From contig QZKI01000131.1 in NCBI GenBank assembly GCA_003598055.1, forward strand, positions 1 to 64,000: 64,000 bases of DNA, given 5' to 3'. The stretch is from Candidatus Abyssobacteria bacterium SURF_17. GTDB lineage: Bacteria > Abyssobacteria > SURF-5. Under the pieces are notes generated by a model. That model saw only the letters and a program-made list of their open reading frames with translations, had not been told where the DNA came from and made no database searches. A program made the translations under genes and the position numbers. Every line of letters starts with the position of its first letter. Positions within the stretch are counted from its first letter, which is position 1. Shown here in pieces: positions 15,928 through 33,393 of the stretch.

Positions 15928-17310
15928 ATGCACATGAGGGTTTGTGCGATGCTGTTTTTTGCCGTGACATTATTGGTGAGTGTGCCATGCCGGGCGGAGG
16001 ATGCCCCCGCTGGCTCTGAAATGCAAGCACTAAGGGAACAAATGGAAACCTTGAGAAAAGATTTTGAGCAGTTGCAGCAGCGATACGAGAGGGACGTTCT
16101 CGACCTCCAAGGCCGGGTCCGTGAGCTCTCCGACGAACTTGCGGAGCGCCGGACGATTGAAGCTGAGAGCGAAACCGTGTATGAGGACATCTATGAGCGG
16201 GCTCCGGCTGTAATATACCAGGCTCCTCAGGTGAGCGGGCAAGGCTTGGGGCAAGTCTTCAATCCGGATGTCTCGGTCATCGGTGATGTTCTCGCCCAAT
16301 ATACAAGCCACGAAAATGAAGGGGATAAGCCCGACGACGAGTTCATATTCCGGGAGCTGGAAATCAACTTCTCCGGCCTCCTCGACCCGTTCGCGCGGGC
16401 CGACGTCGTGGTCGCGCTCCACAAGGAATTTGAGCACGAAGTCGAGGAGGAACACGAGGGAGAACATGAAGAGAGCGTTCGCGGACATTCCCACGAGCAC
16501 GACTTCGCGATACACATTGAGGAGGCGTATCTTACCGCTCTTACACTTCCCTACGGATTGCAGGCACGCGTCGGCAGAATGCGCGAGCGCTTCGGAAAGA
16601 TCAACACGGTCCATCTCCATGCTCTTCCATGGGTGGATTACCCGTTGGTAGTCAAGAACTACTTCGGCCACGAAGGCCTCATGGGTGATGGTGCGGAGGT
16701 GAGCTGGCTGGCGCCAACGCAGCACTACCTCGAGCTGTCCTATGAGGTCTTCAATAACGATAACAATTCCGTATTCGCCGGAGAAGATTATGACGATTTT
16801 GCGCATTTGCTGCATGCCAAGAATCTGCTCGAATTTTCGGATGCGACCACGCTCGAGTTCGGCGGCACGGTGGCGACCGCTCCGAACGACGACGGCCACG
16901 GCGGCAGCCGCACATGGCTCGAAGGCATAGACCTCACGTTCAAATGGCGTCCGCTGCAAGAGGCGCTCTACAAGAGCCTCACGTGGCAGACCGAAGCATT
17001 GTTCTCGCAGAAAGACACAGACGAGGGCGACCGGGACACATGGGGGTTATATTCCTCGCTCGAGCACCAATTCGCGCGTCGCTGGAAGGCCGCTGCTCGG
17101 TACGACTATTCGGAACTTCCGGACTTCGAGAACCTGCGCGAACATGGTTACTCGGCATATTTGACGTTTGCCCAAAGCGAATATGTGTTCTGGAGGTTCG
17201 GATATATGTTTGTTGACCGCAACTTCCCCGACCCGGAACAAGAAGACGAACACGTGCTCTGGCTTCAGTGCAATTTCGGTCTCGGTCCGCACCGAGCCCA
17301 TGAATACTAA
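15928..17310 (+). CDS. Outer-membrane/porin-like protein with His-rich segment
   Basis: Signal peptide, N-terminal coiled coil, beta-rich body, His-rich HEVEEEHEGEHEESVRGHSHEHD. Confidence 0.7.
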   Translation: MHMRVCAMLFFAVTLLVSVPCRAEDAPAGSEMQALREQMETLRKDFEQLQQRYERDVLDLQGRVRELSDELAERRTIEAESETVYEDIYERAPAVIYQAPQVSGQGLGQVFNPDVSVIGDVLAQYTSHENEGDKPDDEFIFRELEINFSGLLDPFARADVVVALHKEFEHEVEEEHEGEHEESVRGHSHEHDFAIHIEEAYLTALTLPYGLQARVGRMRERFGKINTVHLHALPWVDYPLVVKNYFGHEGLMGDGAEVSWLAPTQHYLELSYEVFNNDNNSVFAGEDYDDFAHLLHAKNLLEFSDATTLEFGGTVATAPNDDGHGGSRTWLEGIDLTFKWRPLQEALYKSLTWQTEALFSQKDTDEGDRDTWGLYSSLEHQFARRWKAAARYDYSELPDFENLREHGYSAYLTFAQSEYVFWRFGYMFVDRNFPDPEQEDEHVLWLQCNFGLGPHRAHEY

Positions 17311-17327
17311 AGAGAGGTGACGCGTAT

Positions 17328-18392
17328 ATGGCAAAGAAAGCTTTCCTCAGATTGATGGCTGTCATCATAACGTCAGCCTCCCTTCTTTTCTCCAGCACAG
17401 GTGAATGCGCGGAAAAGCTCAATGTCTTAACAACTCACACCGTGCTCAAATCCATAGGGGAAGAAGTGGGGAAGCAGCACGTTTCCGTGTCGTGCCTCGC
17501 CACGGGCAAAGAGGACCCGCATGCAATACAGGCCAAGCCGAGTTACATGGTGAACGCACGCAAGGCCGACCTCCTCATAATAATCGGCATGGAAATGGAA
17601 ATCGGCTACGAGCAACTTGTTATTGACGGGTCTCGTAACAATAAAATTCGGTTCGGCCAGCCGGGATACTTGGACGTCTCGCTCAATGTCCTTCGCCGTG
17701 AGGTTCCCACGACACGCGTGGATAGGTCAATGGGCGACGTGCATCCGCTCGGAAATCCGCACTATTGGATGGACCCGTACAACGCTCGCATCGTCGCGCA
17801 GTCAATAGCCGAGCGGCTCGCGCAGCTCGACCCCGACAACGCTGCCGAATACCGTGCGAACTGCGCCGACTTCATGCGTCGCATTGATAGTGCGATGTTC
17901 GGCGAGGAACTCGTGAAGGAATTTGGAAGTGAGCGGCTGTGGTCGCTCGCGCTGGCGGAACAATTGGACGCCTTCCTGAAGGAAAAAGCTCGCAACGATG
18001 CGGGCAATGGTTGGTATCAGCAGCTTCAGCCCTATCGAGGCAAGCAGATTATCACATATCACCGCAGTTGGGGGTATTTCGCCGAGCGTTTTGGACTCAC
18101 CGTGGTGGCCGAACTCGAGCCGAAGCCGGGCATTCCGCCCAGTCCGGGCCATCTACTACAGGTTGTGCAGATTGCCCAGCGACACAGCGTTCCGGTGATA
18201 GTGATGGAACCCTATTACAGCATAAGAGCGGCGGACTTCGTCGCAGAGAAAACTGGGGCTAAGGTGCTCGAGGTTACAAATGCTGTCGGCGGTCAACCGG
18301 GCGTGAATGATTATGTTTCACTTATTGACAGTGCTGTCAAGAAACTGAAGGACGCACTCGCCGAATCCAGTGAAGGCATTAAGCAAATGTGA
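17328..18392 (+). CDS. Metal ABC transporter substrate-binding protein (ZnuA/TroA-like)
   Basis: Signal peptide; LTTHTVLKSIGEEVGKQHVSVSCLATGKEDPHAIQAKPS; GNPHYWMDPYNARIVAQSIAERL; TYHRSWGYFAERFGL. Confidence 0.9.
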   Translation: MAKKAFLRLMAVIITSASLLFSSTGECAEKLNVLTTHTVLKSIGEEVGKQHVSVSCLATGKEDPHAIQAKPSYMVNARKADLLIIIGMEMEIGYEQLVIDGSRNNKIRFGQPGYLDVSLNVLRREVPTTRVDRSMGDVHPLGNPHYWMDPYNARIVAQSIAERLAQLDPDNAAEYRANCADFMRRIDSAMFGEELVKEFGSERLWSLALAEQLDAFLKEKARNDAGNGWYQQLQPYRGKQIITYHRSWGYFAERFGLTVVAELEPKPGIPPSPGHLLQVVQIAQRHSVPVIVMEPYYSIRAADFVAEKTGAKVLEVTNAVGGQPGVNDYVSLIDSAVKKLKDALAESSEGIKQM

Positions 18393-18554
18393 AGGACAGG
18401 GGCAGGAAATCTGTCCGAGGACTGTAGAATGAAGGCAGGGGCGCGGTGCAACCTATCCCTACAGAATGAAGACTCTTCTGAGAGTCGGGAGCCTTCTAAC
18501 AGCCGACCCGGCTATGCCGGGTTACTTGTAGAAGAAACATGCAAGGTCGTGATT

Positions 18555-18678
18555 GTCATTGCGAGTCATGTCCTGCCTAAGGTGGGGCATGACGAAGCAA
18601 TCTCTGCGTGACCATGTGACTGCCAAAGAGATTGCTTCGATTGCTCGGGTCTGCGACCCCTTGCTCCCTTGCAATGAC
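18555..18678. repeat. Fold-back repeat with GTCATTGCGAG-type terminal inverted repeats
   Basis: GTCATTGCGAG 18555-18565 / CTTGCAATGAC to 18678, internal GACGAAGCAATCTC...GAGATTGCTTCG; same family as 1-173. Confidence 0.8.
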
Positions 18679-18712
18679 TGATAGAACGCAGTTTCTTAGA
18701 GAGGAATCACTG

Positions 18713-19576
18713 ATGAGCGATATGATGCAATTCATGGCGGCGCCTTTCGCGGCGTGTCTGATACTCACCGGCATACACTGCTACCTCGGCCTCCATGTGG
18801 TCACCCGGGGAGTCATTTTCGTCGACCTTGCACTCGCACAAGTGGCCGCACTTGGAACAACCACGGCGCTCTTGTTCGGGTTCGAGCTGAAAAGCGCCGA
18901 GGCGTATTACTTCTCCCTCGGGTTCACATTCATCGGCGCCGCCGTCTTCGCGCTCGGAAGGTTTCGCGAGGAACGAGTGCCGCAGGAGGCCATCATCGGA
19001 ATCGTGTATGCGGTATGTTCCGCCACTGCCATATTGGTACTCGACCGCGCTCCGCACGGACATGAGGCAATCACTGCGATGCTGGTCGGCAACATACTTT
19101 ATGTGACGTGGCCGGGTATCGTGAAAACTTTGCTCATCTATGCAGCCGTCGGCGTTGTTCATTTCCTGCTGAGGGACAGATTCCTGCTCATATCACTTGA
19201 CGTCCGCGAAGCATGGAATCGAGGGCTGTCAGTACGGTGGTGGGACTTCGTCTTCTACGTCACATTCGGGTTCGTGGTTACAAGCTCGGTGCAAATTGCC
19301 GGAGTTCTCCTGGTGTTCAGCTACCTGGTTGTGCCGGCTGTGTGCGCGATGCTCTTCGCCACGCGCATCTCGTCGAGGCTGTTGCTCGGATGGACAATCG
19401 GCTGCATCGTCAGCCTTCTCGGAATGGTTGTCTCGACAAGGTGGGACCTGCCCACGGGCGCATCAGTCGTCTCAGTCTTTGGGCTGGCGCTCATCGTGTG
19501 CGCGTTGCTCGCGCGGCTGAAAGCTTTCCGCGATCACGCGCCCGGGCATCGTCTTGATCCGGCGGAAAAGCGGTGA
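18713..19576 (+). CDS. Metal ABC transporter permease (ZnuB/TroC-like)
   Basis: GIHCYLGLHVVTRGVIFVDLALAQVAALGTTTALLFG; SSVQIAGVLLVFSYLVVPAV. Confidence 0.9.
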   Translation: MSDMMQFMAAPFAACLILTGIHCYLGLHVVTRGVIFVDLALAQVAALGTTTALLFGFELKSAEAYYFSLGFTFIGAAVFALGRFREERVPQEAIIGIVYAVCSATAILVLDRAPHGHEAITAMLVGNILYVTWPGIVKTLLIYAAVGVVHFLLRDRFLLISLDVREAWNRGLSVRWWDFVFYVTFGFVVTSSVQIAGVLLVFSYLVVPAVCAMLFATRISSRLLLGWTIGCIVSLLGMVVSTRWDLPTGASVVSVFGLALIVCALLARLKAFRDHAPGHRLDPAEKR

Positions 19577-19624: not shown

Positions 19625-19654
19625 TTGACAACCGCATTGATCCACGGCTATAAT
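19625..19654 (+). promoter_or_regulatory. Sigma70-like consensus promoter
   Basis: TTGACA (19625-19630)-N18-TATAAT (19649-19654), both hexamers perfect. Confidence 0.75.
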
Positions 19655-19718: not shown

Positions 19719-19777
19719 GGCCACGAAGGCCTTTGCCGAATTGGAATTCGGCGAGCGCATTCGTGGCCTTTTCTTTT
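19719..19777 (+). terminator. Intrinsic terminator/attenuator-like nested hairpin in the leader of the TonB receptor gene
   Basis: GGCCACGAA...TTCGTGGCC outer stem, GCCGAATT/GGAATTCGGC inner stem, followed by TTTTCTTTT. Confidence 0.6.
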
Positions 19778-19878: not shown

Positions 19879-21849
19879 ATGTCCAGAAACTCGCTTCGTC
19901 AAGTACTGCAATTTGTGTTTTGTGCGTTTGCTGCCGCTGTCGTGTTTTCTTCCGCATATGCCGATGAGGAGAGCCCTGAAGAACAAGTAGTTCAAATGGA
20001 GCCAGTCGAAGTCGTAGCGTCGCCAATCGTCGAGGGAAATCTCGTCAACGAATATGGCAGCCAGGTCACCGTGGTGACAGAGGAACAGATTGAGGACCTC
20101 AACGCGCAAGACCTCCCGGCGGCTTTGAGAAGGACGCCCGGCGTGGTAATCTCACGCCACAACCCCGTTGGCAGTTTCGGCGGCGGCGAAGGCGGGTCGA
20201 TATTCATCAGGGGAATGGGAGGCTCGCGTCCGGGCGCAGAAATCCAGACCCTCGTTGACGGTGTGCCGAAATTTGTGAGCGTATGGACCCATCCGCTCAT
20301 GGACGTGCTCAGTGTAGACCCGGTTGAGAAAATCGAGGTGTACAAGGGAGCACAGCCAGTCCTCTTCGGCAACATGGCGTTCGGCGCTGTGAACCTCACG
20401 ACCAAGAAAATGGAGGAAGAAGGATTTTATACGAAGCTCGAAGGCGCATACGGCTCCTATGACACATGGGTCGAGGTTCTCGAGCACGGCGGGAAGGTGA
20501 AGAAGTTCGACTACTATCTTGTCCAGAGCTATCGGAAATCTCATGGTCACCGCGACGATGCAGATGGAGAACTCCAGGAGTATTTCGCACGGGTTGGGTA
20601 CGAGCTTTCAGAAGACTGGGATATCGACCTCCTGCTGAATCATACAAACAATTGGGCAGACGACCCGGGCGCGGAAGACGAAAACCCTCCCCCCGATGGA
20701 ACGTTTAAGACAGATGATTACTTCACCGTTGCCACTCTTTCTCATGAATACGACTGGACCAAAGGTTACGTGAAACTCTATCTCGAAGATGGCGACATAG
20801 ACTGGGTTGACCAGTTCAATGAAGGCACGAGCCTCAACACCGATGACACTCTGACCGATTACAGAAACTACGGCGTGAGAGTCCGCGAAACCGTCGAGCC
20901 ATGGGACGGTACTGAGATACTTGTCGGGCTTGACGTGGACAATATCAGTGGAGAAGTTGATCTCATTTCGCCGCCTGTTCCAGAGAGCCACTTTGACGAG
21001 GAGACCTTCCGCATCGTAGCGCCTTACGTTGCGCTCAGCCATATCATCGGCTCGAAGGATGACCTTTACGTCGTCCCGTCTGCCGGGTTCCGCTACATGG
21101 ACCATAGCGAATTCGATGACGAGTGGGCCCCTCAAGCCGGGCTGGTCCTTGGCTGTAAGAATACGGAACTCCACGGGTTCTACTCGCGCGGCGTAAATTA
21201 CCCGGGCATGTTTGTCACCGTGCAGGAGGAAATTTTCCTGCCCGGAGAGAACCAGTCCGAAGAATTAACGGCCGAGGTGCTCGACCACTTCGAGCTGGGC
21301 ATCAGCCATTCACTGGACGAGAAAGTCAAAGCGGACGTTACGTACTTCTACGATGACGGCAAGGACCGCATCGTCGTCTCGCCGCCGCCTCCATTCCCGC
21401 CGGTATTGGAAAACATCGGAGACTTCAGAACCAGAGGAGTTGAAGGAACACTCACTATGTTCCCAATCCCCGAACTTTCCCTGTTCGCAGGATTCACCTA
21501 CCTCGATGCCGACCCGAACGACCTTCCCTTCGCGCCCGACTGGACCGCAAGCGCCGGGCTCAACTACCGATTCCTCGCGAAATTTCAGCTCAGCATGGAC
21601 GCGCTCTACCTCGACGAGCATTTTGCAACATCGCGCGGCCGCACAGAGGGCACGGTGAACACGGAAAAGGTTGGTTCCGTATTCCTGCTGAATGCGAAGC
21701 TGGCCTATGACTTCTCCATTCCTTCATGGAATGCGGAAGGATATGTTTACGTGGCCGGCGAGAACTTGACGGATACAGATTACGAGTTCAAGCCGGATTA
21801 TCCCATGCCCGGAATCAACGGAATGGTCGGAGTAGCGCTGATATTCTAA
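19879..21849 (+). CDS. TonB-dependent outer membrane receptor
   Basis: Signal peptide, plug domain VTVVTEEQIEDLNAQDLPAALRRTPGVVISRHNPVG...IFIRGMGG, C-terminal beta-strand ending in F. Confidence 0.93.
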   Translation: MSRNSLRQVLQFVFCAFAAAVVFSSAYADEESPEEQVVQMEPVEVVASPIVEGNLVNEYGSQVTVVTEEQIEDLNAQDLPAALRRTPGVVISRHNPVGSFGGGEGGSIFIRGMGGSRPGAEIQTLVDGVPKFVSVWTHPLMDVLSVDPVEKIEVYKGAQPVLFGNMAFGAVNLTTKKMEEEGFYTKLEGAYGSYDTWVEVLEHGGKVKKFDYYLVQSYRKSHGHRDDADGELQEYFARVGYELSEDWDIDLLLNHTNNWADDPGAEDENPPPDGTFKTDDYFTVATLSHEYDWTKGYVKLYLEDGDIDWVDQFNEGTSLNTDDTLTDYRNYGVRVRETVEPWDGTEILVGLDVDNISGEVDLISPPVPESHFDEETFRIVAPYVALSHIIGSKDDLYVVPSAGFRYMDHSEFDDEWAPQAGLVLGCKNTELHGFYSRGVNYPGMFVTVQEEIFLPGENQSEELTAEVLDHFELGISHSLDEKVKADVTYFYDDGKDRIVVSPPPPFPPVLENIGDFRTRGVEGTLTMFPIPELSLFAGFTYLDADPNDLPFAPDWTASAGLNYRFLAKFQLSMDALYLDEHFATSRGRTEGTVNTEKVGSVFLLNAKLAYDFSIPSWNAEGYVYVAGENLTDTDYEFKPDYPMPGINGMVGVALIF

Positions 21850-21868: not shown

Positions 21869-23356
21869 ATGCAGACAACCAAGAAAACAGTCCTGATTGC
21901 ACTCATCGTTGTAATGTCGCTCTGGCCTCTCGGCTTGGCGGCTCATGAGGAGCGCATCCCCGTCATCATGGATACTGACATGGCTCTGGATGATGTGCGT
22001 GCGTTGTCGCTGTTGCTGTGTTCTCAGCACGTGCAGGTGAAAGCAATCGTCACATCGGACGGCTCATCCTCGCCCGAGGCCGGATACCGCAATCTCCTCC
22101 GCGTTCTTACCTTTATGGAAGCCACAAGTGTACCTGTAGGCGTAGGAAGGGCGCTTGACCAGCCGCCTCCGCCTTGGCGCGAACGGTCCGAGGCCTTAGG
22201 ATGGGCGGAGCTGCCAGTGACCGCTCATGAGGGAGACATCCCGGACGCCATTTCCCTGATTGTTACCCTTCTCCAGAAAGAGAAACAGCCCATCACATAC
22301 GTTTGCCTCGGGCCGATGACCAACCTCGCTGACGCTCTTCGTAAGGAGCCGTCGGTACGTGACAGGATTCAGAACATCGTCTTCCTCGGTTCACCGGTGA
22401 CCGCATCGGAGCAGGGATGGAATACGATGAGAGACCCCGAAGCCGTTCGAGCAGTTTCCGCATCCGGAATACCCATCTATTTCTTCCATCTCGAGGAGCA
22501 GCGCTTCCCCGAATTCGATTCCGGGCTTCTTGAAGATATAGAGAAATTCAGCTCGAACCAATCCCGGCTTATCGGCCTGACTCACCGGGATGAACGGATT
22601 CAGAGCCTCTTGAGAGAGGGACACCTCCGGATGTGGGATGAGACAGTAGCCCTGTTTTTGGATGACTCCTCACTCGGTACTGTGGTTCCCATCGAGGGTG
22701 AGGCTCGCCACTTTATTCTGCAGAGCTGGGATCAAGAAGCTGCACGCAAGGCATACCTGCGCCTCGTGTCGGGCTGGACCGAGCACGACCTCTATCCTAG
22801 GCAGCCGGTGGTCTTGAACCGCTATCCCACGAATCCTCAGGATTTTCAAGAGGATGTTCGCCCCTTCGTTCCCGAACTTATAACTCGCAACGGGCTGGAG
22901 GAATGGAAGGCCGTAGTCCTGACAAATGAGCTGCACCGTCATTTGGGGGTCTATTCGATACTGGGCGCAAAGATGGGCATACGCGCCCGCGAGCTTCTCG
23001 GGGCTTCACTTGACGAGCTTCGGGTCGAGAGCCATGCAGGCATCGAGCCACCCCTGAGCTGCATGAACGACGGTCTGCAGGTTTCCACCGGCGCCAGCCT
23101 GGGACGGGGAACAATCACGATATTGAACGGGAAGCCGACCCCCGCAGTCACTTTCATTCATGGCGATAAGAGTCTTCATCTCCGCCTCAAAGATGAAGTG
23201 ATTGCGCGAATCCACGCTGACTTTAAGAACGCTATTGATACTCGCGGAGCATTGACTTCGGAGTATTTCAAAGAAGTGCGCAGGCTCTCGCTTGATTACT
23301 GGATGAATGCGGACCGGCGCGATATATTCGACCAGCAAATCGAAGTCCTGAAATGA
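21869..23356 (+). CDS. Exported nucleoside hydrolase-like protein fused to an FmdE-like domain
   Basis: Signal peptide; IPVIMDTDMALDDVRALSLLL (DTDxxxDD); C-terminal LHRHLGVYSILGAKMG...PPLSCMNDGLQVSTGASLGRGTI as in FmdE family. Confidence 0.85.
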   Translation: MQTTKKTVLIALIVVMSLWPLGLAAHEERIPVIMDTDMALDDVRALSLLLCSQHVQVKAIVTSDGSSSPEAGYRNLLRVLTFMEATSVPVGVGRALDQPPPPWRERSEALGWAELPVTAHEGDIPDAISLIVTLLQKEKQPITYVCLGPMTNLADALRKEPSVRDRIQNIVFLGSPVTASEQGWNTMRDPEAVRAVSASGIPIYFFHLEEQRFPEFDSGLLEDIEKFSSNQSRLIGLTHRDERIQSLLREGHLRMWDETVALFLDDSSLGTVVPIEGEARHFILQSWDQEAARKAYLRLVSGWTEHDLYPRQPVVLNRYPTNPQDFQEDVRPFVPELITRNGLEEWKAVVLTNELHRHLGVYSILGAKMGIRARELLGASLDELRVESHAGIEPPLSCMNDGLQVSTGASLGRGTITILNGKPTPAVTFIHGDKSLHLRLKDEVIARIHADFKNAIDTRGALTSEYFKEVRRLSLDYWMNADRRDIFDQQIEVLK

Positions 23357-23822: not shown

Positions 23823-24182
23823 ATGAATGCGAAAACTATGAGCGCTCAAGGCCCCACTCTGCTTATCCGTGCCAATTGCATCGGCCGTGGAGATGATGAG
23901 CTCGGTCTCAACCTGATGATGAATTTCATTTTTCATCTCACCAAGGCTGAGACCGTGCCGGAAACAATCATTTTGATGAATTCCGGCGTCACACTGGCGT
24001 CGGAAGGCTCAGAAGTTCTGGACGAACTAAGAGAGCTTGAAAGGAGAGGAACGTCGGTCCTCGTTTGCGGCACCTGCTTGAACTTCTTCAATATCAAGGA
24101 CCAACTCAAGGCGGGGCACGTTTCAAATATGGGAGAAATTGCCACAACGCTTCTTGATGCATCGAAGGTCATTACGGTATAG
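23823..24182 (+). CDS. yedF: YedF/DsrE-like protein (selenium-metabolism-associated family), without TusA-like N-terminal domain
   Basis: LLIRANCIGRGDDELGLNLMMNFIFHL...FLMNSGVTLASEGSEVLDELRELERRGTSVLVCGTCLNFFNIKDQLKAGHVSNMGEI. Confidence 0.8.
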   Translation: MNAKTMSAQGPTLLIRANCIGRGDDELGLNLMMNFIFHLTKAETVPETIILMNSGVTLASEGSEVLDELRELERRGTSVLVCGTCLNFFNIKDQLKAGHVSNMGEIATTLLDASKVITV

Positions 24183-26741: not shown

Positions 26742-27713
26742 TCAAACTTCCCCGAGAATGTCCTCGATGTAGTATTTTGAGAACAGGGCACTGACCGGAT
26801 TATTCGCCAGCGACTTGTCCTTTACGAACAGGGTGGACGTGGGAGCCTCGCTGTGCTGCGTGAAAATGAAATCCACACCGACGCAGAGTCCGACCACCAC
26901 ATTGACTTCCGTGCCCAGCCTGTTCAGGACGCACGCTTGTCCTATCGGGTTGCAGACTACTCCGCTCGAAGCGGTGATAAGGTCGTGCTCGGCGTGCCCG
27001 CCGACCTTGCAGCATACGGGACTGACTCTGAAAAACCTCCGCAGCAGGCGTGTGAGTATTTCCGCTTCCCGAAACATCTCCACGCAAAACGCCACCCCAA
27101 TGTGTTTGTATTCCATGCCCATGCAATAATATATGAATTCGGCCACGCGACACAACTTCCGGTGTGTCTCCGCCGATATGTCCATCGTTACTTCCATCGA
27201 ATGGTTGAACTTGGAATAACCATCGGCCGGAAAGAGGCTCCCCATCTGGGGCATGCAGTTTTCACCCTTCAGGCATAGTCGGTCGACACACTCAACGCAG
27301 TCAATGCGGGACAATTCACTTCCCGCCTGTGCGACTGCCCCACTCGCCGCCTCCGCCGGCAGGCCTTTCCGGGCGGGCTTTGCAGGTTGGCTTTCCAGAC
27401 CGTATCCGCTCCGCAATTGCCCACCGGTGAGCGCCGTCAAAACCTCCTCCACCTCGGCCGCAACGTCCTGCACCACCTTGATACCGTAAGAATCCACCCT
27501 CTGCACAAAATCCTCGTCTATCGCCCCACAGACAAACAGGTCAATCTCAAGGTCGACCAACTGAGCAATTCGCTCTTCCTCATTCATTCCCGTCGTATCT
27601 ACCGTTTTTTTCGAAATCACGGCGTTGTCTCTCACCTGGACGAGCAGTGTTTTGTCTGAATAAAGGCACCGGGGAGAAACCCGTGTGCCGAACAGTGGAA
27701 TAGCTACTCTCAC
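26742..27713 (-). CDS. NifX/NifB-like domain fused to DUF1847-like domain
   Basis: MRVAIPLFGTRVSPRCLYSDKTLLVQV...LFVCGAID; then CVECVDRLCLKGENCMPQ...EYKHIGVAFCVEMFREAEIL...VCCKVGGHAEHDL. Confidence 0.8.
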   Translation of the reverse strand: MRVAIPLFGTRVSPRCLYSDKTLLVQVRDNAVISKKTVDTTGMNEEERIAQLVDLEIDLFVCGAIDEDFVQRVDSYGIKVVQDVAAEVEEVLTALTGGQLRSGYGLESQPAKPARKGLPAEAASGAVAQAGSELSRIDCVECVDRLCLKGENCMPQMGSLFPADGYSKFNHSMEVTMDISAETHRKLCRVAEFIYYCMGMEYKHIGVAFCVEMFREAEILTRLLRRFFRVSPVCCKVGGHAEHDLITASSGVVCNPIGQACVLNRLGTEVNVVVGLCVGVDFIFTQHSEAPTSTLFVKDKSLANNPVSALFSKYYIEDILGEV

Positions 27714-28285: not shown

Positions 28286-28924
28286 ATGAAAATGAGGGAT
28301 ATCTCAGAAAGCCAAAGACAGTTTGCACTGCTCGGCGGCATATTCGCCGCAGCGCTCGTCGTCTCTCTCATTATGGGATGGATTCTGTTTCCCAGTCTGG
28401 CGTATGCGCGGAAGGCGCAGCCTATCAATTACAACCCGCCCTTGCACGTCGAACAGATCGGAATCACGTGTGACACGTGCCACTTCTTCTATGAGGACGG
28501 CAGTTGGGCGGGAATCCCGACGCTGGAGACGTGCGTGGATTGCCACAGCGATATCATCGGCGCCTCGCCGGAAGAAGAGAAGTTCGTCAACGAATATGTG
28601 AAGAAGAACCGGGAAGTGAAGTGGGCGCTGTATGTGAAACAGCCGGAATGCGTGTCATTCTCGCACTCATCCCATGTCAGAATGGCCAAGATAGCGTGCG
28701 AGACATGCCACGGTCCACAGGGTCATTCCGACCCCAAAGACTACCTTGCCAACAGAATAACAAACTACAGCTACGTTGTGTACGATCCGCGAGTCCCGCT
28801 CAATGCGTTCACCATCATTCGAGACAAAGGAGAGACCGTTTGGGGAACCATGCGGATGGATGAGTGTACCGCCTGTCATCGTTCGCGGGGGACAAGCACT
28901 GCATGCTTTATTTGCCACAAGTAG
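28286..28924 (+). CDS. qrcA: Menaquinone reductase multiheme cytochrome c subunit QrcA
   Basis: N-terminal TM anchor and five CxxCH motifs (CDTCH, CVDCH, CETCH, CTACH, CFICH); followed by QrcBCD-like genes. Confidence 0.85.
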   Translation: MKMRDISESQRQFALLGGIFAAALVVSLIMGWILFPSLAYARKAQPINYNPPLHVEQIGITCDTCHFFYEDGSWAGIPTLETCVDCHSDIIGASPEEEKFVNEYVKKNREVKWALYVKQPECVSFSHSSHVRMAKIACETCHGPQGHSDPKDYLANRITNYSYVVYDPRVPLNAFTIIRDKGETVWGTMRMDECTACHRSRGTSTACFICHK

Positions 28925-28966
28925 GAACGCATGGCCCATGCACGAGGAACCAAGAGGCATAAGAGC

Positions 28967-31357
28967 ATGAACGTTGACCGAAGAACATTTGTGAAAGGAA
29001 TGGCCCTGGCGGGGGGCGGCGCGCTCGGCATAATGCTGTCACCGACGCCGTGGTATCTGATAAGAGACCTCGCCTTCTGGACGCAAAATTGGCCATGGGT
29101 GCCGGCCCCAGCCCCGGGCGAACCTTCATTCGAAAAGTCGATCTGCCGTATCTGCGACGGTGGATGCGGCATCAACGTGCGGAAAGTAGACATGCGCCTC
29201 GTGCGTATAGATGGTGATAAAGAGCATCCCGTGAACCAAGGCTCGATTTGCCCGATGGGCGCTGCGGCGCTTCAGATGCTGTATGGCCCTTCGCGCACGA
29301 AGGTCCCTCTGCGGCGGGTCGGCCCGAGAGAAAACCCGGAGTGGAGGCCTATAACCTGGGCCGAGGCCATCAGAGAGGTCGCCCTCAAAGTCAGACAACT
29401 CCGCGCCGCTGGGAGACCCCACGAGCTCGCCTGCATAACAAACAGCGCACATAGCACGGTCAACCAGTTCTTCGAACGGTTCCTGCACGCGGTGGGCTCA
29501 CGGAACTTCATGCAAATGAACTCTGCACTTGAGGCCCACAGCACCGTTCTCGCTCTGATGCAGGGTGTCGATGAAGGCATAGCATACGATATCGAGAACG
29601 CGCGATATCTCTTGAGCTTCGGATGCAATTTGCTCGAAGGGTGGGGGGCATGCGGTCGGATGTATCATGCACACGCAAATCGGTCCGCACATGAAGGCGG
29701 CAACAGCCTCGAAATCGTCCAGATAGAGCCGAACCTTTCGGTGACGGCAAGCAAGGCCTCCCGCTGGATTCCCATCAAACCGGGAACCGATGCCGCGCTC
29801 GCCCTCAGCATCGCGCACGTGTTGATATCCGACGGGCTCTATGACAAGACATTCGTTGAACGACATACGTTCGGGTTTGAAGATTGGAAGGATTCCGACG
29901 GCAAGCGACGCCGAGGATTCAAATCAGAAGTCCTTGGCCGCTACTCGCCGCGTTCGGTCGAACTCATTACCCAGGTGCCGGCGAACGTCATTGAAGAGGT
30001 CGCTCACGAGTTCGCCGCGAACCAGCCGGCGCTCGCCCTGGGTGGAAGATGCGATGGCAGCTTGTTTGCCGGCATCTACGAGTTGATGGCAATCCACAGC
30101 CTCAACGCGCTTGCGGGAAATCTCTCGCGGCCCGGCGGAATCTTTCTGCAATGCGATGTCCCGCTGAAGTCGCTGTCACCGGTGAAGATGGATGAGCAAG
30201 CCGAGCAGGGCTTCGCGATACCCCGCAGTGACGGAGCTGGGAGCAAAGAGCATCCTCTCGCCCGACACTTGCCACACAACCTCGACGCCGGCAAGGTCGG
30301 CGTACTCCTCATACATGAGGTGAACCCCTCGTACGCTTTGCCCAACCGGAAAGTCGCACGCGCCATTTTCGAGGACATTCCGTACATTGTCAGCTTCTCC
30401 TCTTTCATTGATGAAAGCTCCATGCAGGCGGACCTGATTCTTCCCATCTCGACCCCGCTGGAGCGATGGGATGACCACACCGGCGCCCCCGGGATTCCAT
30501 ACCCAATTTACGGCCTGAGCCATCCACTCGTGAATCCGCTCTATGAAAGCAGGAACGCCGGAGATGTTCTCATAGAGATTGCCCGTGAGCTGGGAGGCAC
30601 AATCGCAGAGTCATTCCCGTGGAACAATACGGTCGAAGCTCTTAGAGAACGAGCTGCGGGATTGTATGAATCCGGAACAGGGGTTATCCACACCGCCGAA
30701 TTCTCGGCGACATACATGAGCCAGACAGCTACCCCGACGGAAGTAAAGTCTTTTCCGACATTTTCTGATTTCTGGAATGCGCTCGTTAAGAACTGTTGTT
30801 GGTCCGACCCACAATGCACGACCGATCAGTTGGAACAGACTCTTAAGACTCCCGGCAAAAAATTTGAATTCTTCAGCCAGCGATTGCAGAAGACCTTCGG
30901 GTACAGCAATGACCTCGAATGTATGCCTCACTATCATGAGCCGCCGCCCAACCCGCAAGGGTTCGACCTGTTGATTATGCCTGAAAACCTGATAACCATG
31001 GCCGATAACGGCCTCGGCACACCGCCCCTCCTCATCAAACAGCTCAGCAATGATGTGCTGTCGGAAAACGACTTGTTTGTTCAGGTTAACCCCATTACTG
31101 CCATGTACCAGGGATTGAAGGATGGCGAAAGCGTGATCCTCGAATCTCCAGCAGGCAAGGTTCGGGTGCGCATACACACGTTCGCCGGAGTGCGGGAGGG
31201 AGTGGTGCTGATCCCACTCGGCTTCGGCCACACGGCATATGACCGGTTTCTGCGCAACAAAGGCGTGAATGCGCTTGAGATATTTGATGCAAAGATGGAT
31301 ACCGTCAGCGGCCTCGCCGTCTGGTGGGCCGTGCCCGGGAAAATATACAAGGTGTGA
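28967..31357 (+). CDS. qrcB: Menaquinone reductase molybdopterin-oxidoreductase-like subunit QrcB
   Basis: Tat signal NVDRRTFVKGMALAGGG; ICRICDGGCGINV cluster; molybdopterin oxidoreductase fold sequence; gene context. Confidence 0.85.
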   Translation: MNVDRRTFVKGMALAGGGALGIMLSPTPWYLIRDLAFWTQNWPWVPAPAPGEPSFEKSICRICDGGCGINVRKVDMRLVRIDGDKEHPVNQGSICPMGAAALQMLYGPSRTKVPLRRVGPRENPEWRPITWAEAIREVALKVRQLRAAGRPHELACITNSAHSTVNQFFERFLHAVGSRNFMQMNSALEAHSTVLALMQGVDEGIAYDIENARYLLSFGCNLLEGWGACGRMYHAHANRSAHEGGNSLEIVQIEPNLSVTASKASRWIPIKPGTDAALALSIAHVLISDGLYDKTFVERHTFGFEDWKDSDGKRRRGFKSEVLGRYSPRSVELITQVPANVIEEVAHEFAANQPALALGGRCDGSLFAGIYELMAIHSLNALAGNLSRPGGIFLQCDVPLKSLSPVKMDEQAEQGFAIPRSDGAGSKEHPLARHLPHNLDAGKVGVLLIHEVNPSYALPNRKVARAIFEDIPYIVSFSSFIDESSMQADLILPISTPLERWDDHTGAPGIPYPIYGLSHPLVNPLYESRNAGDVLIEIARELGGTIAESFPWNNTVEALRERAAGLYESGTGVIHTAEFSATYMSQTATPTEVKSFPTFSDFWNALVKNCCWSDPQCTTDQLEQTLKTPGKKFEFFSQRLQKTFGYSNDLECMPHYHEPPPNPQGFDLLIMPENLITMADNGLGTPPLLIKQLSNDVLSENDLFVQVNPITAMYQGLKDGESVILESPAGKVRVRIHTFAGVREGVVLIPLGFGHTAYDRFLRNKGVNALEIFDAKMDTVSGLAVWWAVPGKIYKV

Positions 31358-31364
31358 GCTAACC

Positions 31365-32114
31365 ATGAAAACTGAGTCCGGCGACCAGAGAATCGCGCGA
31401 TACGGAATGACGATAGATGTGGATAAGTGCACCGGATGCGGCACGTGCGCAGTCGTCTGCCATATGGAGAACAACGTCCCGTTCACGGTCGATGAGAGCG
31501 ACAAATCCCGCAATATGGCTTGGATGCGGATTTACAAGGTGGATAACGGATTGGATTACCCGCACGTGCGCGTTGTCTATTTTCCGCGCCCGTGCATGCA
31601 GTGCGACCATCACACGCCGTGCGTTTCTGTGTGTCCCGCCAGCGCCACCAACTATGACGGTCTCACGGGAATTGTGGATCAGATAAACACACGCTGCATT
31701 GGATGCCGCTATTGCATGGCAGCGTGCCCATACATGGTGCGCTGCTTCAACTGGTGGGACCCGGTCTGGCCGAAAGACATGGAGAAGCATCTGAATCCGG
31801 ACGTCGCGCCGAGAATGCGCGGTGTGGTGGAAAAATGCACGTTCTGTTCGCACCGCTACCTGAAGGCAAAGGACAAGGCTCACAATGAAGGAAGAGACTA
31901 CCTACGGGAAGATGAATATGTGCCCGCTTGCGTCGAGGCGTGTCCCGTAGGAGCGATGCGCTTCGGCGACCTGAACAATCCGGAGCATGCCGTAGCGCAG
32001 CTCATCCAAAGTCCGCGGGCCTTCCGGTTACTGGAGAATCTTCACACTGAACCGAAGGTCTACTACCTCAGTTCTTATGAATGGGTGAGAAAGCTTGCAG
32101 ATAATTTCGCGTGA
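31365..32114 (+). CDS. qrcC: Menaquinone reductase iron-sulfur subunit QrcC
   Basis: Ferredoxin motifs CTGCGTCAVVCH, CMQCDHHTPCVSVCP, CIGCRYCMAACPY, CTFCSHRY. Confidence 0.87.
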   Translation: MKTESGDQRIARYGMTIDVDKCTGCGTCAVVCHMENNVPFTVDESDKSRNMAWMRIYKVDNGLDYPHVRVVYFPRPCMQCDHHTPCVSVCPASATNYDGLTGIVDQINTRCIGCRYCMAACPYMVRCFNWWDPVWPKDMEKHLNPDVAPRMRGVVEKCTFCSHRYLKAKDKAHNEGRDYLREDEYVPACVEACPVGAMRFGDLNNPEHAVAQLIQSPRAFRLLENLHTEPKVYYLSSYEWVRKLADNFA

Positions 32115-32166
32115 CAGCGGCCGTCCAAGAGCCACGGGATAACCCGAGAATGAACAAAGGAACACC

Positions 32167-33393
32167 ATGACTTCAGAGCACACCACACCGAAACTCGAAC
32201 GATGTTCCCGGCAGAAGTTCCTCGTTTGGCTGTCCGTATGGGGATTGCTGCTGGCATGGGGACTGTACGGCGCATTCCTCTGCCTGTTCAAAGGCCTGAA
32301 TCAGACGGGCATGAACAACTATTTCGTCTTCGGACTCTGGATAACCGTTGACCTCGCAATCATAGCGCTGGGGGCCGGCGCCTTTTTCAGCGGGTTCCTC
32401 TTCTATATCCTCAAAGTGGACCATCTCAAAGACTTGATAGGGGCGGCTGTCGTCATAGGGTTTATCTGCTACAGCGGCGCCATTGGAATGCTCACCATTG
32501 ACATCGGGCAGCCGTTGCGCGGCTACTTCAGTTTCTGGCACGCTAACGTGCACTCGATGCTTACGGAAGTGATTTTCTGCATAACCTGTTATCTGTTTGT
32601 TCTTACAATCGAGTTCACGCCGCTGATTCTTGAGAACAAGCGATTGAGCGAATTCCCCCTGTTCAAGTACATCGGCGAAAACCTCCATGGAATCATGGCG
32701 GTGTTCGCGCTGGTGGGGACCTTTCTGTCATTCTTCCATCAAGGGTCGCTCGGCGGAATGTTCGGCGTCTTGTTCGCGCGGCCATTCGCGTATCGTACCG
32801 GCGTCGCCATCTGGCCGTGGACATTTTTCCTCTTCATATTGTCGGCCATTGCCTCGGGTCCGGCACTGACCACGCTCGTGGTCTGGACAACACAGAAGGT
32901 GACCGGAAAACAACTCGTGCGCAGGTCCACGCTGTCAAAACTTGCAAAACTCTCAGCGACGTTATTCTTCGTATATCTGATTTTGAAGGCAGCCGACACC
33001 GTGTATTGGGCAAATGTCACCGCGCCACAGATGGGATTCGCGTTTACTCGGTTCTATCAGGGACCCTACGGAATGGAGCTGTTGTTCCTCGAGCTGTTTG
33101 TCTTCGGGCTGCTGCCGGCCGTGCTCCTGCTGATTCCCAAGGCGCGCGAGCACGATTTTTCGCTCGTCATCGGATGTCTGTTCATCTGCATGGGTATCGT
33201 CCTCAATCGTTTTGTTATGACGGTGCAGACTCTTTCAATACCCGTGCTCCCGTTTGAAAAGTTCGTCGCGTATGCGCCGACCTGGCAGGAATGGGCCGTT
33301 GCAGCGGCGGTTCTCGGATATGGGGTCATCGTGTATTCGCTCAGCTATCGGTACCTTCACCTCTTTCCCCGGGAACATGAGCTGAACGCATAG
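32167..33393 (+). CDS. qrcD: Menaquinone reductase integral membrane subunit QrcD (NrfD/PsrC family)
   Basis: Multi-TM NrfD-like: VDLAIIALGAGAFFSGFLFYIL...FTPLILENKRLSEFPLF. Confidence 0.87.
   Translation: MTSEHTTPKLERCSRQKFLVWLSVWGLLLAWGLYGAFLCLFKGLNQTGMNNYFVFGLWITVDLAIIALGAGAFFSGFLFYILKVDHLKDLIGAAVVIGFICYSGAIGMLTIDIGQPLRGYFSFWHANVHSMLTEVIFCITCYLFVLTIEFTPLILENKRLSEFPLFKYIGENLHGIMAVFALVGTFLSFFHQGSLGGMFGVLFARPFAYRTGVAIWPWTFFLFILSAIASGPALTTLVVWTTQKVTGKQLVRRSTLSKLAKLSATLFFVYLILKAADTVYWANVTAPQMGFAFTRFYQGPYGMELLFLELFVFGLLPAVLLLIPKAREHDFSLVIGCLFICMGIVLNRFVMTVQTLSIPVLPFEKFVAYAPTWQEWAVAAAVLGYGVIVYSLSYRYLHLFPREHELNA

Follow-up and report, generated by a model that had tools for sequence, protein, structure and literature searches.

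Why would a bacterium export a protein that joins a nucleoside hydrolase to an FmdE domain, next to a TonB-dependent receptor? The question is raised by a 495-amino-acid open reading frame (21869..23356, + strand) in a 64,000-nucleotide stretch of DNA from Candidatus Abyssobacteria bacterium SURF_17, which we call the window. The frame contains no internal stops. Pfam places IU_nuc_hydro on residues 32-229 (E = 2e-33; 116.6 bits against a cut-off of 34.2) and FmdE on residues 355-488 (E = 8e-13; 49 bits against a cut-off of 22.9). Taking Pfam, alignment and Foldseek together, the nucleoside-hydrolase (NH) domain occupies residues ~26-300 (21944..22768, +), and the FmdE domain lies at 22931..23332 (+). 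AlphaFold2 modelled the fusion from 63 natural sequences with a mean pLDDT of 92.7, and the FmdE half alone with a pLDDT of 96.5. The best Foldseek matches of the NH half were the RihA entries 3g5i/1yoe (E ~1e-15), accompanied by other nucleoside hydrolases, and those of the FmdE half were 2gvi (1e-7) and 2glz (8e-6).

Residues 1-25 (21869..21943, +) have the appearance of a signal peptide that ends in GLAA, with predicted cleavage between VVMSLWPLGLAA and HEERIPV; all signal-peptide calls were made by alignment and inspection rather than with a dedicated program. The first-pass annotation had read the frame as a signal peptide, an NH half with intact metal-binding residues and an FmdE half in a single protein beside a TonB receptor, and the frame is confirmed as a fusion of both domains with a predicted export signal. 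Because 65 complete fusions occur in the best 80 related loci, a chance fusion or an assembly artefact is ruled out.

We determined how widely this architecture is distributed. A scan of genome contigs with the single protein returned no relatives; a subsequent profile scan over 84,980 species genomes detected 288, and we retrieved the best 80 loci for analysis. The profile query (A1) included two made-up bait rows for pattern making, and the conclusions are independent of both. Among the best 80 of the 288 relatives, 65 aligned sequences, the window's included, carry NH and FmdE in one reading frame; no fewer than nine loci encode FmdE without an NH half, and contig edges truncate most of the other non-fused loci. 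FmdE is matched by Pfam in 78 of 78 relatives and the homologues are mostly fused; the first-pass annotation would have abandoned its reading had FmdE failed to match or had homologues always been unlinked. Carriers include Verrucomicrobia, Zixibacteria, Desulfobacteria, Acidobacteria, Aminicenantes and gut Bacteroidales (Alistipes, Odoribacter, Parabacteroides). A tree built on the FmdE part, in which several branches are weak, does not group the FmdE-only forms together but spreads them out, with eight state changes; repeated loss or gain of the NH half is therefore probable. No separate NH gene lies near the FmdE-only genes at their loci.

NCBIfam holds no model for the NH-FmdE fusion, plasmid searches yielded only nucleoside hydrolases of the ordinary kind or remote FmdE proteins, and our literature search found no paper in which FmdE is connected to TonB, or in which a nucleoside hydrolase is connected to either FmdE or NikR. 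A nucleoside hydrolase adjoining SusCD-type genes, described in a paper on the Bacteroides iron stimulon, looks unrelated to the fusion family. The family is widespread and apparently undescribed in the literature searched; there, its domains and the type of pathway are already known, and the fusion as a component and its assignment appear to be new.

The FmdE half retains most of a metal site. In the solved FmdE structures, Zn or Ni is held by H15, H17, C19 and C55, and the window's H356-x-H358 (22934..22942, +) corresponds to the first two of these ligands (His15/His17 of 2glz), while C398, D401 and Q404 (23060..23080, +) correspond to the ligand Cys55 and to the second motif's Asp58 and Gln61 (PMC2954224). 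Both motifs are invariant in 65/65 fusions, and so is a change: glycine, G360 in the window, occupies the Cys19 position in all 65, leaving three of the four ligands. The solved protein 3d00 likewise does without two of the four (PMC2954224). Compared with the PF02663 structures 2gvi, 2glz and 3d00 (PMC2954224), the fusions share the fold, the His-x-His and Cys ligands and the Asp/Gln motif, but they are exported, have Gly for Cys19, lack a zinc finger and are joined to an NH domain.

The first-pass annotation had taken FmdE as a sign of the formylmethanofuran pathway, and had proposed that a nucleotide- or pterin-containing metal complex is processed after uptake by the receptor; in the pterin version of this reading, the complex would contain a molybdenum or tungsten cofactor of pterin or methanofuran type. 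The premise on FmdE is weak, since only 13 of 208 PF02663 genes lie within fmd operons and metal-ion transporters adjoin most of them (PMC2954224). Neither formylmethanofuran dehydrogenase (fmd) genes nor pterin genes are among the recurrent neighbours identified. Beyond the family name itself, the pterin proposal can point to a molybdate/tungstate-like ABC transporter near one relative (L018), and we consider it highly improbable. The wider idea of handling an imported metal complex has held up, with NikR, NikM/Q/O, DUF4198 and operator sites, as described below, pointing to nickel instead of a pterin.

A second candidate metal ligand lies at the predicted mature amino terminus. His26 (21944..21946, +) directly follows the apparent signal peptide, and a histidine occupies the same predicted +1 position in 54 of the 65 aligned fusions, mostly preceded by Ala. 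It is also present in six FmdE-only forms (L014, L020, L025, L043, L050 and L053). As a crude control using the same predictor, +1 His was found in 1 of 98 unclassified exported reading frames versus 23 of 50 family members. Such a residue could act as an amino-terminal metal chelator and may complete the FmdE site in place of the lost Cys. There is a close precedent in DUF4198, experimentally proven to be a secreted Ni2+ binder that uses its N-terminal His (Kd of 18 nM for one member) and whose genes adjoin TonB and NikR genes (Nat Commun 2025, PMC12537917). The DUF4198 nickel binders resemble the fusion in export, N-terminal His and TonB/NikR neighbours, and they share operons with it, but their fold is unrelated and they consist of a single domain without an NH or FmdE part.

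The NH half presents a mixed picture. Its residues D35, D41, D42, T151, N185 and D257 are kept, and five of them (D35, D41, D42, T151 and D257, equivalent to D10, D14, D15, T126 and D242) are conserved in 54-64 of the 65 fusions. We take these five to form the calcium and catalytic Asp cluster of nucleoside hydrolases, and Asn39, Glu166 and His241 to contact the ribose and leaving group. The latter three are S66, G183 and W256 in the window's protein, and in nearly all fusions N39 has become Ala, Val or Ser, E166 has become Gly, Ser or Asp, and H241 has become Trp. Arg44 and Trp112 are newly conserved. The Trp preceding the last Asp ligand presumably resembles that of IAG nucleoside hydrolase. 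The pocket looks like one whose ribose site has been remodelled rather than one that is dead. Relative to RihA/RihC and IAG-NH (PF01156), the fusion shares the fold, calcium ligands and catalytic Asp, but differs in its export, its changed ribose and leaving-group residues, its additional Arg44 and Trp112 and its FmdE partner.

These features bear on whether the protein scavenges nucleosides or nucleotides, with the NH half freeing bases from imported nucleosides and FmdE serving as a structural or metal-storage addition. The bona fide NH fold found by Foldseek and the almost invariant core residues would suit such a role. Against it, the family as a whole carries substitutions at the positions of Asn39, Glu166 and His241, and nine relatives dispense with the NH half while keeping FmdE and usually the N-terminal His. 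Moreover, the neighbours identified include metal genes but none for nucleoside transport or salvage. We therefore regard nucleoside scavenging as improbable.

The company that the fusion gene keeps in the relatives points to nickel. The window's TonB-dependent outer-membrane receptor (19879..21849, +; 656 amino acids; Pfam Plug and beta-barrel) ends 19 bp upstream of the fusion gene, and the two are presumed to be co-transcribed. TonB receptors belonging to a single sequence cluster are found at 36-38 of the best 80 loci, often a few bases from the fusion gene, and the pair recurs across phyla, which supports the receptor link proposed in the first-pass annotation. Nickel-related genes recur as well: nikR is nearby at eight loci, and others encode CbiM, CbiQ and an ATPase of the Ni/Co transporter (NikM/Q/O) type. 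The gene order is nikR-FmdE-CbiM-CbiQ-ATPase at L043 and nikR-CbiM-DUF4198-like-CbiQ-ATPase-fusion at L015. Further recurrent neighbours encode DUF4198 and DUF4198-like proteins and an amino-acid permease. Control by a cobalamin (B12) or other riboswitch was rejected, as Rfam gave no match in the window or in 33 loci.

As a separate observation, exported relatives of CbiF (cobalt-precorrin-4 methyltransferase) lie beside the receptor and fusion genes in Desulfobacteria (L022:5113-6021 and L040:4803-5708), and the same neighbour is found at L021, L027, L030, L031, L035, L036 and L045. A SAM-enzyme fold is odd in the periplasm, and the protein may bind a tetrapyrrole-like ligand.

We then examined regulation by the nickel repressor. 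The delta-proteobacterial NikR signal is GTGTTAC-N13/14-GTAACAC (PMC545781). An early, looser scan was weakly above expectation (17 sites versus 9 in shuffles), and it was checked by a scan of whole loci and by a search for NikR in the genomes. Scanning all loci (1.05 Mb) with the relaxed pattern GTRYYAC-N13/14-GTRRYAC and at most one mismatch, a pattern fixed after some sites had already been seen, yielded 16 NikR-type operators. Most of these immediately precede a receptor, fusion or nikR gene, and all four perfect sites (L019, L026, L028 and L087) are so placed. About ten relatives have such an operator upstream; none lies near the window locus. A search for NikR in the genomes behind 44 loci found it encoded in 20; about half lack it. 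Leaving out loci with an adjoining nikR, it was found in 7 of 8 genomes with an operator site versus 10 of 33 without (Fisher P = 0.005), and its presence elsewhere in those genomes was unseen when the sites were called.

The fusions travel with a receptor and, in many bacteria, with nickel-uptake genes and nickel-repressor sites, and the family therefore probably supplies a component so far missing from the picture of bacterial nickel scavenging. For the window's own protein, we favor, with somewhat more confidence than doubt, a role as the periplasmic partner of a TonB-dependent receptor for nickel or a nickel chelate. We infer the following steps from the domains and neighbors. The receptor would deliver the metal to the periplasm, either free or as a chelate; there the mature protein would capture it by its amino-terminal His together with an FmdE site consisting of H356, H358 and C398, the usual fourth Cys being lost. 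The NH half would bind the organic part of the chelate and perhaps cleave it. The metal would then be handed to an inner-membrane importer, which in many relatives is of the NikM/Q/O type.

A more specific version of this proposal is speculative and, in our judgment, unlikely: the imported nickel complex would have an N-glycoside ligand, a nucleoside- or nucleotide-like nickelophore, that the exported NH half cleaves so that nickel is freed to the FmdE/His site. If true, it would mean a periplasmic glycosidase that dismantles metallophores, for which we found no precedent in the literature searched.

To our knowledge, few outer-membrane nickel uptake systems have been characterized, and their periplasmic steps are largely obscure. 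Many fusion relatives have in common with the FrpB4/FecA3-type, NikR-regulated receptors both the regulator and the NikM/Q/O inner-membrane partners. Unlike that type, the window's receptor has a dedicated, two-domain periplasmic partner; among solved structures, the colicin I receptor and PQQ-type receptors are closest to it in sequence, weakly. The family supplies a testable periplasmic component across several phyla, including gut Bacteroidales. Exported FmdE domains thereby gain a likely role, in a family whose function has been unsettled ever since its structures became available. A further question is why metal uptake employs a nucleoside-hydrolase fold.

The window itself supplies evidence against nickel. 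Its genome encodes neither NikR nor a NiFe hydrogenase, no NikR-type site is present at the locus and the immediate neighbors are of Zn/Mn type. Directly upstream lies a trio of genes (15928..19576, +) for a His-rich outer-membrane barrel (15928-17310), ZnuA (17328-18392) and an ABC-3 permease (18632-19576). The trio is conserved at L115, L116 and L018, with no ATPase gene between its members in the window and in two relatives. The fusion could accordingly belong to general divalent-metal scavenging, with zinc (or cobalt) the metal here and the upstream ZnuA and permease receiving it. The same trio stands near the receptor-fusion pair of L018, and the solved FmdE proteins hold zinc (PMC2954224). 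However, both family relatives carry the trio, 63-79% identical, but no receptor-fusion pair, and the pair therefore looks like a later insertion beside it. Furthermore, although the closest receptors to the window's are those of L018 (58%) and L044 (56%), the next ones, at L014 (53%), L025 (50%) and L020 (41%), sit in loci with CbiM/CbiQ (L014) or nikR (L025 and L020). We consider the zinc or cobalt explanation a minority possibility.

Elsewhere in the same genome, contig C83 carries a probable Ni/Co uptake locus (L098:1396-6567): a porin-like protein, a DUF4198-like protein, CbiM, a second His-starting periplasmic protein and CbiQ. The DUF4198-like proteins of this locus again have His after an apparent signal peptide. 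With no NikR or NiFe hydrogenase, a CbiM/CbiQ locus elsewhere and the ZnuA trio upstream, the metal handled in Abyssobacteria SURF_17 could be nickel, cobalt or zinc.

The approach to the receptor gene has features of its own. A predicted sigma-70 promoter with the full consensus, TTGACA-18-TATAAT (19625..19654, +; 12/12 matches), is followed after less than 100 bp by the start of a strong terminator-like hairpin with a T tail (19719..19777, +; -33.6 kcal/mol, z = -4.5), and then by the receptor gene. The hairpin matches no Rfam family; it might act as an attenuator, belong to a small RNA gene or terminate the upstream operon.

Downstream of the fusion gene, we observed three further loci. At 23823-24182, a stand-alone protein of 119 amino acids matches just the C-terminal half (positions 83-193) of the selenium-metabolism protein YedF. 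At 26742-27713 (- strand), a weak Nitro_FeMo-Co match is joined to DUF1847. Finally, the genes at 28286-33393 match the Qrc menaquinone reductase complex (QrcA, QrcB and an iron-sulfur protein).
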